A stretch of 64,000 bases of DNA from the NCBI RefSeq assembly GCF_000227465.1, contig NC_016047.1, positions 3,514,857 through 3,578,856 on the forward strand, read 5' to 3'. Under the pieces are notes generated by a model. That model searched no databases. It worked only from the letters and a program-made list of their open reading frames with translations, and was not told the origin of the DNA. Made by a program: the position numbers and the translations under genes. How positions within the stretch are numbered: the first letter of the stretch is position 1; each line of letters begins with the position of its first letter. Of the stretch, positions 11,771 to 55,701 are shown piece by piece. The DNA comes from Bacillus spizizenii TU-B-10 (GTDB lineage: Bacteria; Bacillota; Bacilli; Bacillales; Bacillaceae).

Positions 11771-12721
11771 TTATTTTAAAGTGACGGTTTGCCCTGTCCG
11801 CAGCTGTTCTGCGATTTCGTCAAGTTTTCTCAGCCTGTGATTGATCCCTGATTTGCTGATTTTCCCGCTTGCTACCATTTCCCCCAGCTCTTTCAGCGTC
11901 ACTTCCTGATAATCAATTCGCAGCTGCGCGATTTCCCGAAGTTTTTCAGGAAGCGCATCCAGGCCGATTCTTTCATCGATGTATTTAATATTCTCCACCT
12001 GTCTGAGCGAAGCGCCGATCGTTTTGTTTAAGTTGGCTGTTTCACAATTGACGAGGCGGTTGACCGAATTTCTCATATCCCTGACGATTCTGACATCCTC
12101 AAATCGCAGAAGCGAATTGTGGGCGCCGATCACGTTCAGAAACTCAGTAATCTTTTCCGCCTCTTTTAGATAGGTGATATAGCCTTTTTTCCGTTCGAGC
12201 GTTTTACTGTTTAATTGAAACTCATTTAACAGGTCGCATAATGAATCGTTATGCTCCTTATAAAGAGAGAAGATTTCTAAATGATACGAGGAGGTTTCCG
12301 GGTTATTGACCGAACCTCCTGCCAAAAATGCCCCTCTCATATAAGAACGCTTGCAGCATCTCTTTTTGACCAGCTCTTTCGAAATACTTCGTTCAAACAC
12401 AAAATTCTCCCCAAGTATTTTTAAATCCTCTAAGATTGCTTTTGCATTTTCTGAAAAACGCACAATATAGACGTTATTCTTTTTCAGCCGCATTTTCTTT
12501 CTGACCAGCAGCTCGACCGACACATCATATTGTTTTTTCAGCAATGTATAGATGCGGCGGGCAATCGCCGCATTTTCGGTTTGAACATCAAGTACGAGAT
12601 GGCGGTTTGTAAATGATAATGCTCCGTTCATCCGGATAAGCGCCGACAGCTCTGCGTTAATGCAGCAGTCTTTCACTTCCAGATTCGTTAATTCTTTTTT
12701 TGTTTCTGATGCAAATGACAT
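11771..12721 (-). CDS. whiA: WhiA (YvcL), sporulation/division-associated DNA-binding protein
   Basis: A 316-residue protein of the WhiA family: an N-terminal degenerate LAGLIDADG homing-endonuclease-like region ([21 protein letters not shown]) and a C-terminal helix-turn-helix ([26 protein letters not shown]). In B. subtilis it affects cell division and chromosome segregation rather than sporulation. The yvcI-rapZ-glmR-whiA-crh order is widely conserved in Firmicutes. Confidence 0.95.
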
Positions 12722-12742
12722 ATAGCCACCTCATTTCTGGCT

Positions 12743-13696
12743 TCATTCTTTTAGTAAATCGACAAGAAGAGAGGCCACTTTATGTGTATCGTGACGAATT
12801 ACGTCATTTTTATACGTTACGATTTGATCTCTGATGACTTCAAGCCCCATTGCTTTCAGCTCCTCGATATCAAAATCAACAGGACGCGCCGATTCCATTT
12901 CGTACTTACGTTTTATTTCGTCAGGAATGTCTTCGCTGTTCACTAATATCGTATCAATAAAACCACAGCCCATATGCTGATTGAGCGCTTTCACATGATC
13001 AGCTGCGGTGTAATGGATTGTTTCGCCGGGCTGAGTCATTACGTTGCAAATGTATACTTTTTTCGCTGGCGCCTTCACCACTTCTTCCCCGATTTTCGGG
13101 ACGAGCAAATTGGGAAGAATGCTTGTATAGAGGCTTCCCGGACCGATAATAATCAAATCCGCTTCCCTGATCACGTCTATCGTTTCCGGCAGCGGATCAA
13201 TATGTTCAGGCGTGAGGAAAACACGCTTAATGCGCTGTCCGGACGCCGGGATCGTGGACTCGCCTGAAACCACGCGGCCGTCTTCCATCTCAGCATGCAG
13301 AACGACACTGGCATTGGCAGCTGGCAAAACCTTTCCTCTTACATTCAGCACCTTGCTCATTTCTGTGACAGCGTGAAAAAAATCACCGGTTATATTTGTC
13401 ATCGCTGCCAAAATCAAATTCCCGAGAGAATGGCCTGTTAAGTCATTCCCCTTATTGAAGCGGTGCTGAAAGAGATCTTCAACAAGCGGCTCCACATCGG
13501 ATAAAGCGGCAAGCACATTTCTGATGTCTCCGGGAGGCGGAATTTTCAGTTCATCCCGCAGACGGCCAGAGCTTCCCCCATCATCGGCAACTGTCACAAT
13601 GGCCGTAATGTCAACAGGTTTATGCTTTAAGCCCCGAAGCAATACAGAAAGACCCGTACCACCGCCAAAGATTGCAATTTTCGGCTTTTGTCCCAT
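12743..13696 (-). CDS. glmR: GlmR (YvcK), UDP-GlcNAc-binding regulator of carbon partitioning to cell wall
   Basis: A 317-residue YvcK/CofD-like protein with nucleotide-binding start IAIFGGGTGLSVLLRGL and the conserved TVADDGGSSGRLR and PPPGDIRN motifs. Known in B. subtilis to bind UDP-GlcNAc and stimulate GlmS, steering carbon into peptidoglycan precursors under gluconeogenic growth. The ATG at 13696 follows the rapZ stop by one base, which is typical coupling. An in-frame ATG at 13738 inside rapZ has no good ribosome-binding site. Confidence 0.94.
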   Translation of the reverse strand: MGQKPKIAIFGGGTGLSVLLRGLKHKPVDITAIVTVADDGGSSGRLRDELKIPPPGDIRNVLAALSDVEPLVEDLFQHRFNKGNDLTGHSLGNLILAAMTNITGDFFHAVTEMSKVLNVRGKVLPAANASVVLHAEMEDGRVVSGESTIPASGQRIKRVFLTPEHIDPLPETIDVIREADLIIIGPGSLYTSILPNLLVPKIGEEVVKAPAKKVYICNVMTQPGETIHYTAADHVKALNQHMGCGFIDTILVNSEDIPDEIKRKYEMESARPVDFDIEELKAMGLEVIRDQIVTYKNDVIRHDTHKVASLLVDLLKE

Positions 13697-51221: not shown

Positions 51222-51452
51222 ATGGAGAAAGACCCCAGTGACTATACAGTAACACAGGAATCGGTGTTAAAGCTGATTCGTGAACAAAAAAGAATGAATC
51301 GTGAAATGATCGCTGAGCTTGAACAGATCCACGGACCTCTTCCGATCTCTCACGATATTCAATACATAAAAGTACTGCTTGACAGCAGCAACACGCATAT
51401 CGTTCAAGATTTAATGAGTGTAAGTAAGCAGCTGTATAAGAAGACTTTGTAA
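51222..51452 (+). CDS. yvkN: YvkN, small conserved protein of unknown function
   Basis: A 76-residue soluble, mostly helical protein ([20 protein letters not shown] ...). AAGGAGG lies 11 bases before the ATG. It lies alone between yvlA and the flagellin gene. The name comes from synteny; no domain is recognised and no function is offered. Confidence 0.75.
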
Positions 51453-51571: not shown

Positions 51572-51618
51572 AAAAAAAGCCTGCCGGCATATCCAACTAA
51601 TGGACCTGTCGGCAAGCT
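51572..51618 (-). terminator. Terminator of the flagellin gene
   Basis: On the minus strand a long imperfect stem from AGCTTGCCGACAGGTCC to GGATATGCCGGCAGGCT with loop ATTAGTT is followed by T7, 33 bases past the stop codon. Confidence 0.82.
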
Positions 51619-51650: not shown

Positions 51651-52475
51651 TTAACGTAATAATTGAAGTACGTTTTGCGGCTGTTGGTTCGCTTGAGCAA
51701 GCATAGCTTGAGAAGCTTGAGAAAGAATGTTGTTCTTTGTGAACTCGCTCATTTCTTTAGCCATGTCAACGTCACGGATACGAGACTCAGCAGCTGTCAA
51801 GTTTTCACTAGATGCGCCTAAGTTGTTGATAGTGTGCTCTAGACGGTTTTGTACCGCACCGAGTTTAGCACGTTGTTTTGACACATTGTTGATTGCAGTA
51901 TCAATACTTTCAAGTTGAGTATCAAAAGGAGTAGTAGCAAAATCTTTTACATTAAGTGTGTCTACTCCTAAAGCATTTGCTGACATGCTATCAATGTTAA
52001 CTGTAAGCTGTTGGCCAGCATTTGCACCAATTTGGAAAGTGAAACCATCAGTTTCAGTTCCATCTAATAACTTTTTGCCGTTGAACTCAGTACGATTTGA
52101 AATGCCGTCAATTTCTTCAATAAGTGCATCCATTTCATCTTTAATTGCACCAAGATCTTCTGCTTGCTGTGTACCTGTGTTTCCTGCTTGAACTGTAAGT
52201 TCACGCATACGTTGAAGGATCGCATGAGTTTCAGTCAATGCACCCTCAGCTGTTTGGATAAGAGAGATTCCGTCTTGAGAGTTTTTAGAAGCCATTTCTA
52301 AACCTCTGATTTGTCCTCTCATTTTTTCAGAGATCGCAAGACCTGCTGCGTCATCTCCCGCTCGGTTGATACGAAGGCCTGAAGAAAGTTTCTCCATGTT
52401 CTTTTGTGCTGCACCGTTGTTTGAAGATAAACGGTTCAGTGTGTTAAGTGCTGCGATATTGTGGTTAATTCTCAT
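51651..52475 (-). CDS. yvzB: Full-length second flagellin (yvzB locus), Hag-like
   Basis: A 274-residue flagellin. Both polymerisation domains are intact: the N-terminal D0/D1 (MRINHNIAALNTLNRLSSNN, SGLRINRAGDDAAGLAISEK, RMRELTVQAGNTGTQ) and the C-terminal D1/D0 (VQNRLEHTINNLGASSENLT to QQPQNVLQLLR). The central variable part is short, so it is smaller than Hag (304 residues in strain 168, from memory). In 168 this locus, yvzB, is as I recall only a 3' remnant. The ATG at 52475 lies 10 bases after GGAGG; an upstream extension has no site. A sigma-D promoter and a structured leader precede it, so it looks functional. Main hag lies elsewhere in B. subtilis. Confidence 0.88.
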   Translation of the reverse strand: MRINHNIAALNTLNRLSSNNGAAQKNMEKLSSGLRINRAGDDAAGLAISEKMRGQIRGLEMASKNSQDGISLIQTAEGALTETHAILQRMRELTVQAGNTGTQQAEDLGAIKDEMDALIEEIDGISNRTEFNGKKLLDGTETDGFTFQIGANAGQQLTVNIDSMSANALGVDTLNVKDFATTPFDTQLESIDTAINNVSKQRAKLGAVQNRLEHTINNLGASSENLTAAESRIRDVDMAKEMSEFTKNNILSQASQAMLAQANQQPQNVLQLLR

Positions 52476-52485
52476 GTGTAAAATA

Positions 52486-52535
52486 CCTCCATGTGTATTT
52501 GTTTTTGAAATCAAAGACTTCCTTTTCTTTGATTT
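52486..52535 (-). promoter_or_regulatory. Flagellin leader hairpin with GGA loop next to Shine-Dalgarno; candidate CsrA sites
   Basis: A perfect 10-bp stem (AAATCAAAGA / TCTTTGATTT on the minus strand, 52535-52508) exposes loop AAAGGAAG. A second GGA lies in the Shine-Dalgarno ATGGAGGT at 52492-52485. In B. subtilis hag, CsrA binds a GGA-loop hairpin and a site over the Shine-Dalgarno. The arrangement is the same but the sequence differs. Confidence 0.55.
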
Positions 52536-52662
52536 CTGGCGTATGAGATCCCAGTAAAGCTTCTAACTTATGTAGATCCGGTTATTGATTAAGGATAGAT
52601 TCAAATCCCTTAATAGGACTTTTTTGCTTAATATGGAAAACATCATCCGCCTTTCAATTCAT

Positions 52663-52689
52663 TTATCGGTAGCACTTTGTAAATGTTTA
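52663..52689 (-). promoter_or_regulatory. Sigma-D (flagellar) promoter of the second flagellin gene
   Basis: CTAAA with TAAA at 52689-52686, 15 bp, then ACCGATAA (52670-52663), compared with TAAA-N15-GCCGATAT: six of eight -10 bases match. The implied leader is about 180 nt. The rest of the 352-base gap to uvrA holds the uvrA terminator. Confidence 0.72.
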
Positions 52690-52757: not shown

Positions 52758-52804
52758 AGAAAAAGCTTGCCTGCTAAGCCCGAGGATGGACTTGCTGACA
52801 AGCT
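52758..52804 (-). terminator. Terminator of uvrBA
   Basis: A long imperfect stem from AGCTTGTCAGCAAGTCC to GGGCTTAGCAGGCAAGCT, followed by TTTTCTTT on the minus strand, 24 bases past the uvrA stop. It resembles the flagellin terminator in sequence. Confidence 0.8.
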
Positions 52805-52827
52805 GAATTCCCTCTGAAAAGAGGATT

Positions 52828-55701
52828 TTAAGATGTTGCCGTTTCTTTCGCTTCCAAGAGCGATGTCATGCGTTTTTTGTCACGCTCCATAACAGGCTTC
52901 AAATAACGGCCTGTATACGATTCTTCCACTTCAGTGATTTCCTCAGGCGTTCCTGACGCGACAATGGTTCCGCCTCCGGCTCCGCCTTCTGGCCCCAGAT
53001 CGACAATGTAATCCGCCGTCTTAATGATATCAAGATTGTGCTCAATGACGAGTACTGTATCTCCATTGTCAACCAAACGCTGAAGCACGACAAGGAGTCT
53101 GGCGATGTCGTCGACGTGCAAACCTGTCGTCGGCTCGTCTAAAATGTAGAGCGTACGCCCAGTTGAGCGTTTGTGCAGCTCTGATGCAAGCTTCACACGC
53201 TGCGCTTCTCCGCCCGACAAGGTTGTCGCTGGCTGACCGAGCGTAATATAACCTAAGCCAACATCAAAAAGAGTTTGGAGCTTACGCTTGATTTTCGGGA
53301 TATTTTCAAAGAAAGAAAGAGCATCTTCAACCGTCATATCAAGCACATCAGAGATGCTTTTTCCTTTGTACGTCACTTCAAGCGTTTCACGGTTATAGCG
53401 TTTGCCGTGGCACACCTCGCACGGAACATACACGTCAGGAAGGAAGTGCATTTCAATTTTAATAATCCCGTCTCCGCGGCAGGCTTCACAGCGCCCGCCC
53501 TTCACGTTAAAGCTGAAGCGGCCTTTTTTATAACCGCGGACCTTCGCTTCATTTGTCTGCGCGAATACATCTCGAATGTCATCAAACACACCGGTGTATG
53601 TCGCAGGGTTGGATCTCGGCGTTCTTCCAATTGGCGCCTGATCAATATCAATGACTTTGTCTAAATGATCCAAACCTTTAATCTCTTTATGGCTGCCGGG
53701 CTTCGCCTTCGCTTTATGAAGCTTTTGCGCCAGCGCCTTATGCAAAATTTCATTGACGAGAGTACTCTTTCCTGAGCCGGAAACCCCTGTAACCGCTGTG
53801 AACGTTCCAAGCGGGAACTTGGCATTCACTTTTTTCAGGTTGTTTTCTGCAGCGCCTTTAATTTCAATGTAACGGCCGTCCGGCTTTCTTCTTTCAGGAG
53901 GCAATGGGATGAACTTTTTCCCTGATAAATAGCTGCCCGTTAATGAATTTGGATCTTCCATCACTTCTTCCGGCGTACCCGCAGCCATCACCTGACCGCC
54001 GTGAATGCCGGCACCAGGTCCAATATCTATTAAATAATCGGCTGCCATCATCGTGTCCTCATCGTGTTCGACAACAATCAGCGTGTTCCCAAGGTCTCTC
54101 ATATTTTTCAGAGCGCTGATCAAGCGGTCGTTATCACGCTGATGCAGGCCGATAGACGGTTCATCTAAAATATAAAGCACACCGGATAAGCGCGAGCCGA
54201 TTTGCGTTGCCAGCCTGATGCGCTGCGCCTCTCCCCCGGACAATGTTCCCGCTGCCCTGCTCAATGTCAGGTAATCAAGGCCGACTTTGTCCAGAAAGCT
54301 TAAACGCTCCACAATTTCACGCAAGATCAAATTGGCAATCTGCATATCCTTCTCAGAAAGGGTAAGACCTTTGAAGAAAGCAAGTGCGTCGGCTACAGAC
54401 TGCTCGGTAATTTTTCCGATGTGGCGGCCGTCAATCAGTACGGCAAGCGCCTCTTTCTTTAACCGATAGCCTTTGCATGTCGGACAAGACTTCTGAGACA
54501 TATACTGCTCCATTTGCTCACGGATGAAATCAGAGCCTGTCTCCTTATACCGTCTTTCAATATTGCGCAATACGCCTTCAAATTGAATTTCGCCTTCACG
54601 GATTTGCCCAAAATCATTTTCGTAACGGAAATAAATCAGGTCGTCTCCGCTGCCGTACAGCACTTTATCCAGCTGATGCTGCGGCAGATCTTTTACTGGC
54701 ACGTCCATATCAATCCCATAATGGGTGCAGACCGCCTCAAGAAGCTGCGGATAATACTGTGAACTGATCGGTGTCCAAGGGGCGACCGCATTCTCCTTTA
54801 ATGACAAATCTTGATTGGGGATGACGAGATCCGCATCCACTTCAAGCTTCATTCCGAGACCGTCACATGTCGGACACGCTCCGAACGGGCTATTGAACGA
54901 AAACAGCCGCGGCTCAAGCTCACCGATTGAAAAACCACAGTGCGGGCAGGCATGATGCTCACTAAACATCAGCTCTTCCTCACCGATGACATCAATCATG
55001 ACCCGCCCTTCACCTAAACGAAGCGCCGTTTCCAATGAATCTGACAGACGGGCCGCCACACCTTCTTTCACCACAATCCGGTCAATGACAACCTCAATCG
55101 AATGCTTTTTATTCTTTTCTAATTCAATATCATCAGAAAGCTCAGCCATTTCGCCGTCAATTCTGACTCTGACATAACCTTGTTTTCTGATCTGGTCAAG
55201 GACTTTGACATGGGCGCCTTTACGGCCCGATACGATCGGGGCCAGCACCTGAAGCTTCGTCCGTTCCGGGTATTCCAGAATTCTGTCGACCATTTGCTCG
55301 ATGGTCTGCGATGTAATCTCAATTCCGTGCTCCGGACAATGAGGCTTCCCTACTCTCGCATACAAAAGACGCAGATAATCATAAATTTCAGTTACCGTAC
55401 CGACAGTAGACCTCGGATTGCGGCTCGTGGTTTTCTGGTCGATGCTGATGGCGGGAGACAGCCCCTCAATCGCATCGACATCCGGCTTATCCATCTGTCC
55501 TAAAAACTGGCGGGCATAGGCAGACAATGACTCGACATACCGTCTCTGCCCTTCTGCATATATGGTATCAAAGGCAAGGGAGGATTTCCCTGATCCGGAC
55601 AAACCAGTAACAACGACAAGCTGATCTCTTGGAATCGTTACATCGATATTTTTCAGGTTATGCGCCCGGGCTCCCTTCACCTCTATCCGATCCATAGCCA
55701 T
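52828..55701 (-). CDS. uvrA: UvrA, excinuclease ABC subunit A
   Basis: A 957-residue DNA-damage sensor with two ABC ATPase modules. Walker A motifs are GLSGSGKSS (about 34) and GVSGSGKST (about 640); signatures [12 protein letters not shown] and [12 protein letters not shown]; Walker [14 protein letters not shown] and [13 protein letters not shown]. Zinc-binding cysteines are in CPHCGF...CPTC, CPTC near residue 410 and CEACRGDG...CEVC. It loads UvrB on damaged DNA. It starts 7 bases after the uvrB stop and is SOS-controlled through the uvrB promoter. Confidence 0.98.

Follow-up and report, generated by a model that had tools for sequence, protein, structure and literature searches.

We have found that Bacillus spizizenii TU-B-10 carries, in addition to hag, an intact second flagellin gene at the yvzB locus, here called flaB (51651..52475, minus strand; coordinates are those of the window, the whole stretch of 64,000 nucleotides that was analysed). 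On present evidence flaB is probably a working, CsrA-controlled second filament flagellin, which would have had a single entry at the site between uvrA and yvkN. Within the listings and passages covered by a literature search, with most subscription journals outside its reach, neither an intact flaB at the site nor a second flagellin for the clade had been described earlier.

The gene starts with ATG and encodes a product of 274 residues, which is covered over the whole profile by both Flagellin_N (1.3e-48) and Flagellin_C (9.8e-35) of Pfam, and both terminal helical regions are complete by this profile match. The host genome (4,207,222 bp, one contig) gave three Flagellin_N matches, which are flaB, hag (3594782-3595204) and a gene at 3597127-3597525 that we take to be FlgL-like. 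As hag occupies a separate locus about 28 kb away, flaB is not hag itself, and the proposal of the initial annotation that an intact 274-residue second flagellin with both conserved ends is encoded here was borne out. FlaB is identical to the Hag of the same genome (279 residues) at 228 of 271 aligned residues (84%), including 71 of residues 1-72 and all of the C-terminal 60. It was reported that residues 1-72 of Hag are enough to bind FliW, and that Hag Q297 and R304 matter for swarming and filament formation, their change impairing swarming (PMC6070490); their counterparts in FlaB, Q267 and R274, are kept. The same annotation had described both conserved ends and a short central domain. The first part stands, but since the central region aligns as the variable part of a Hag-like protein, and such proteins were described as consisting of D0 and D1 only in the part of a paper on a close W23 flagellin that is available (PMC5247705), it does not count as an additional domain of its own. 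AlphaFold2, run on FlaB with three sequences only, gave the expected helical topology at low confidence (mean pLDDT 60.2), and solved structures exist for close homologues as judged by sequence.

The genome of 4,215,606 bp that we take to be that of B. subtilis strain 168 was searched by tblastn and showed, at the uvrA-yvkN site, homology to FlaB residues 69-274 only, in frame from about residue 92, with roughly the first 91 residues absent. The flagellin sequence there begins within about 30 bases of the uvrA terminator, and the promoter, leader and start codon of flaB are absent from the 168 site. Over the central region the remnant has 93% identity to FlaB (100 residues), compared with only 68% over 74 residues for the Hag of 168 itself, and it carries a non-conservative change in a C-terminal stretch that is invariant in the other copies. 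Thus flaB and the 168 remnant share both the chromosomal site and the class of central region, and the 93% central identity marks yvzB of 168 as an orthologue of flaB rather than a fragment of hag. That 168 has no intact gene at this place, and that its fragment is a decayed second flagellin which lost its 5' part, had both been suggested by the initial annotation, and comparison of the sequences supports this reading of yvzB well. In a derivative of 168 the expression course of yvzB was unlike that of other flagellar genes (PMC10458515), as expected if the promoter had been lost. A hag probe detected a short band in clpC and hag mutants that was suggested by the authors to be possibly yvzB (PMC4793158), and yvzB of 168 also appears in one line of a table (PMC3862929); these three sources were available in part.

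To place the gene among its relatives, the neighbouring yvlB was located in 44 Bacillus genomes, one per species, and the interval between uvrA and yvlB was read in 31 of them; the YvlB of the other 13 is 60-63% identical. Among the 31, six have an intact flaB (TU-B-10, G005, B. inaquosorum G011, G036, B. tequilensis G038 and G039), one has it split over contigs, one (168) is truncated, and 23 have no flagellin between uvrA and yvlB. The split copy is that of Bacillus sp. SKDU12 (G014), where one contig has the N-terminal part next to uvrA and another has the C-terminal part next to yvkN. These eight carriers and Bacillus sp. N13C7 are the nine genomes of the subtilis clade, in each of which YvlB reaches 95% identity or more to that of TU-B-10 (over 141 unmasked residues in the case of 168). 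With flaB intact in six of the nine and split by contig ends in a seventh, the view that the intact copy is peculiar to the lineage of TU-B-10 had to be given up, as it is common to most of the clade. The site of N13C7 is empty and resembles the empty sites of B. halotolerans (G009) and B. mojavensis (G015), although the gene tree groups this genome with B. inaquosorum at 98% support. The backbone of that species tree, for which segments of eight genes were concatenated, is weak, with some node supports of 26, 48, 64 and 68, and therefore only strongly supported pairs were used. Absence in N13C7 and truncation in 168 mean that the gene is dispensable.

The flanks of the site are conserved across genomes and are formed on the left by an ORF that is presumably uvrA (52828..55701, minus strand) and on the right by one that we take to be a yvkN-like gene (51222..51452, plus strand). 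When the filled sites were compared by eye they had a common order, in which there come, one after another, the terminator hairpin of uvrA, a second repeat that is terminator-like, the promoter, flaB and its own terminator. The second repeat, an inverted repeat after uvrA on the left side of the insertion (52760..52805, minus strand), is by eye like the repeat after flaB. The latter is a putative intrinsic terminator (51572..51618, minus strand), to which the single match of a consensus scan corresponds, about one match being expected by chance. We infer that the pattern of site states is best explained by one insertion event, after which some copies were truncated, lost or replaced.

A sigma-D-like promoter, TAAA-N15-ACCGATAA, lies upstream of flaB at 52663..52689 (minus strand) and was found in the same place in all seven carriers with upstream sequence. 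The carrier promoters start 193-218 nt before the start codon and read TAAA-N15-(A/G)(C/T)CGATA(A/T), with TAAA-N15-GCCGATAT in G036 and G039 and with TGAA, which the pattern used across the seven also admits, in B. tequilensis (G038). By sequence match they fit the sigma-D type, whose consensus we take to be TAAA-N14-16-GCCGATAT, G038 departing from it at -35. A loose form of the pattern is not rare in the window (three matches, 0.58 expected), so it is the conserved position that carries the argument for a promoter. Two pairs of weak inverted repeats were also seen in the flaB region, one of which (14 nt, 86%) encloses the promoter; this was taken for chance.

Between promoter and gene lies a predicted leader hairpin with an 11-bp stem and the loop AAAGGAAG (52507..52536, minus strand), which holds the upstream CsrA-like site and is present in 7/7 carriers, with all 77 pair cells standard. 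Only 0-4 of 1000 shuffled leaders equal it, compared with 10-167 of 1000 for the hairpins of hag, the known case (the leader of G005 entered this test at 105 nt, a later motif having been matched, which leaves its hairpin unaffected). Three stem pairs changed on one side and none on both sides among the seven carriers, and thus the pairing is indistinguishable from plain sequence constraint. The second site, ACATGGAGGT (52485..52494, minus strand), covers the Shine-Dalgarno GGAGG (52486-52490), is invariant in 10/10 columns over the seven carriers, and is called CsrA-like by the consensus that we assume for CsrA. The hairpin ends 27-32 nt before the ATG in the flaB leaders and the last GGA stands at 13-15, whereas in 13 hag leaders the hairpin, of 5-7 bp, ends at 28-30 nt and the last GGA stands at 11 or 14. 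The flaB leader thus follows a plan like that of hag, with one GGA in the loop and one over the Shine-Dalgarno sequence at hag-like spacing. The hairpin (27 of 30 columns invariant) and the Shine-Dalgarno site are its best conserved parts, compared with 53 of 136 invariant columns in the stretch from promoter to hairpin. When flaB leaders were aligned with the hag leaders of their own genomes, 296, 11 and 29 of 500 shuffles reached the score (TU-B-10, G036 and G011, respectively), and outside the ribosome-binding stretch there is little similarity between the two leaders. Conversion by hag therefore does not explain the conservation of the hairpin and the Shine-Dalgarno site.

It has been reported that the hag leader of B. 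subtilis has two sites to which CsrA binds and that FliW relieves this control (PMC6070490, PMC6529632, both available in part), and the arrangement of the flaB leader strongly suggests that flaB too would be under CsrA control. Rfam gave no match above threshold in the leader of flaB or of the hag of the same genome. A weak full-length match to cow-rumen-4 RNA (RF02948) at 52480-52537 on the minus strand missed the threshold (25.6 vs 48.5 bits; E 0.16 and 0.024 depending on the stretch searched). This family is typed as sRNA in Rfam; in its consensus the loop of one hairpin contains AAGGA and the next hairpin contains AGGAGG, so that it may itself be a CsrA-type mRNA leader.

From these elements the following course may be proposed. 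The gene would have entered the uvrA-yvkN site on a single occasion, in the ancestor of the B. subtilis clade or close to it, as the shared position and the junctions seen by eye suggest. RNA polymerase carrying sigma-D most likely transcribes it alongside hag, and CsrA, binding at the GGA of the loop and that of the Shine-Dalgarno site, would block its translation until the export of flagellin frees FliW, which would then remove CsrA and allow flaB to be translated. As the FliW-binding N-terminus and the FliS- and FlhA-binding C-terminus are kept, export of FlaB and its assembly together with Hag would be expected, and the resulting filament would be mixed and would display a second surface loop. 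A two-flagellin filament or a switch of antigens had been raised as possibilities by the initial annotation. In 168 the promoter, the leader and about the N-terminal third were lost, leaving yvzB, and this step can be read directly from the site.

Flagellin genes were also found outside the chromosomal loci. One is present on each of five Bacillus plasmids about 200 kb in size (NZ_CP114067.1, 7816-8941, here L117, and L118 to L121), directly after a CsrA-family gene in the four regions that were read, with PF02599 above its cut-off in all four. By eye, a sigma-D-like promoter precedes the csrA-flagellin pair, and the promoter and ribosome-binding stretches of the module resemble those of flaB. 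The B. halotolerans plasmid (204 kb) has genes for terminase, major capsid, ParM and recA, and hence looks like a phage-plasmid. The same csrA-flagellin pair, with a CsrA 89% identical, lies on contig 29 of B. tequilensis (11789-12923), and in Bacillus phage EZ-2018a a flagellin follows a 67-residue frame whose CsrA match is just below the cut-off (24.7 vs 27 bits). The plasmid and phage findings suggest phage-borne remodelling of flagellin in Bacillus with CsrA as a switch. In G019, a genome of another Bacillus group, a flagellin match lies 31 bases beyond the end of a distant CsrA-like frame (27% identity; contig 11, 12697-12897). SKDU12 has one more flagellin gene, which begins some 0.3 kb behind hag and is cut by the contig end (L068, 6507-6725); by eye it is preceded by a sigma-D-like promoter of its own and has a hairpin with GGA in its leader, and its other end may be the C-terminal flagellin piece with which contig 11 begins (L123, 1-513).

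It is conceivable that flaB itself came from such a source, as a phage-plasmid module of csrA and flagellin behind a sigma-D-like promoter which has since lost csrA. This origin, which is compatible with a working second flagellin, we had held to be improbable and now rate as a tentative, still rather unlikely possibility, the change being due to the alignment of leaders. Besides the occurrence of csrA-flagellin modules on four of the five plasmids, local alignment of the flaB leader with the B. halotolerans module beat 500/500 mononucleotide shuffles, the aligned stretch being the ribosome-binding end in TU-B-10 and the promoter end in G011, and the leader of the cell's own hag aligns worse with flaB's, at the shuffle counts given above. 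Nevertheless, the matched stretches are short and include the promoter and Shine-Dalgarno motifs themselves, each alignment spans one end of the leader only, no remnant of csrA was found between the promoter and Shine-Dalgarno stretches of the flaB leader, and the neighbours of the site are uvrA and yvkN.

Constraint on flaB and its likeness to hag were assessed from substitutions and silent sites. For the N part, pairwise dN/dS among the six intact flaB copies was 0.02-0.18 (hag, 0-0.17), and for the C part it was 0-0.51 (hag, 0.04-0.32); in the central region of flaB it was 0.09-0.22 among TU-B-10, G005 and G036. In permutations over the six genomes with intact flaB, third positions were slightly more alike in flaB-hag pairs of the same genome than in mismatched pairs, both in the N part (85.0 vs 82.4%, 3/720 permutations) and in the central (44.2 vs 41.8%, 7/720) and C parts (88.3 vs 85.9%, 39/720). 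The run test on silent sites detected no conversion tract between flaB and hag in TU-B-10 (p = 0.35), and the lowest value among the six own pairs, p = 0.01 in G038, does not survive correction for six tests. With no tract, and with C-terminal third positions of flaB and hag in TU-B-10 agreeing at only 73%, the near-identical C-terminus reflects mostly selection on the protein. The gene conversion with hag that the initial annotation had thought possible is thus seen as a slight signal across the clade but not as a tract in this genome. Two of these results count against a functional second flagellin, namely that dN/dS of the C part reaches higher in flaB than in hag, and that weak homogenisation with hag could preserve the ends without selection on flaB.

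Among flagellins of different loci and species the median identity of central third positions is 44% (325 pairs). The matrices for the run test and for the 73% agreement in TU-B-10 were built without G032H, G003H, G027X and the partial G014H1, and the 325-pair and later third-position matrices without G014H1 and G032H. Of 112 third positions in the central region, 109 are the same in the flaB of B. inaquosorum and the hag of B. halotolerans, at a baseline of 77.8% (p = 3.6e-9, about 1e-6 when corrected for 325 pairs), which is one clear case, as far as sequence can tell, of exchange of a central region between species and loci. The central region of the N13C7 hag (L067) matches that of the B. 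halotolerans phage-plasmid flagellin at 115 of 124 third positions, which points to a transfer of sequence between the phage-plasmid and a chromosome, and in enterobacteria the surface regions of flagellin are known to recombine (PMC7018530, available in part). It might be argued that flaB is mainly a reservoir, whose central segments are swapped with hag within and between species and which serves as a donor of filament surfaces rather than as an expressed product. The B. inaquosorum case and the slightly greater likeness of own pairs are in keeping with this, but it is only one clear exchange among six intact copies, TU-B-10 has no significant tract, and the promoter-like site, structured leader and terminator-like site that are kept would not be needed by a silent donor, so that we regard a mere reservoir as decidedly unlikely. 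Least likely of all is a non-functional paralogue in slow decay that gene conversion keeps like hag, with 168 and N13C7 showing the endpoint, for although truncation in the one, absence in the other and the weak homogenisation agree with it, there are six intact copies of low dN/dS, also in the central region that is unlike hag, and the hairpin and Shine-Dalgarno site are the best conserved parts of a leader that is little like that of hag.

If flaB is a working second flagellin, it would provide a second natural CsrA target for comparison and would explain yvzB. B. subtilis serves as the model organism for flagellin homeostasis and is credited with a single flagellin, and the strain used may be one that has lost the second. 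Hag, FliW and the CsrA dimer were reported to occur near 1:1:1 (PMC6529632), a balance that would need to be re-read for the sister species if they run two flagellins through the Hag-FliW-CsrA circuit. A wider view, which is possible but in our judgement somewhat unlikely, would make 168 a secondary single-flagellin strain of a clade that ancestrally had two flagellins in one Hag-FliW-CsrA circuit, the second with an independently built CsrA hairpin leader, and would regard the filament surface as a cassette circulating among hag, the yvzB locus and phage-plasmid flagellins with their own CsrA. The pair of flaB and hag would also lend itself, in harmless laboratory bacteria, to studies of the reasons for variation in filament surfaces, among which phage attachment or kin recognition are possible.

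One of the closest known relatives of flaB is yvzB of 168, which has the same site and central region but is without the promoter, the leader and about the first 91 residues, and has the C-terminal change described above. Hag of B. subtilis (PDB 6GOW, 5WJT-5WJZ) is likewise a short flagellin, the Hag of 168 being identical to FlaB at 230 of 274 aligned residues, and its CsrA-controlled leader has, like that of flaB, a GGA in a hairpin loop and another in the Shine-Dalgarno sequence; hag differs from flaB in its locus, in a leader of little similarity and in the central region. The flagellin of B. spizizenii W23 in PDB 5GY2 (residues 54-230) is identical to FlaB in 160 of 177 alignment columns, and its sequence HAILQRMRELT is found in five of the six intact flaB copies as well as in the hag of B. 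halotolerans and of SKDU12. The legend to this structure gives the strain and not the locus (PMC5247705), and the protein could be the product of W23 hag or of W23 flaB. The TldR-fliC and CsrA-linked phage-encoded flagellins resemble flaB in being alternative flagellins with a CsrA motif in a leader stem-loop, but the TldR-fliC systems, as far as the available part of their description goes, have an RNA-guided regulator (PMC13418256); the neighbours of flaB are uvrA and yvkN. The kind is already known, several bacteria having multiple flagellins, some of them under CsrA, and flaB adds one to their number.
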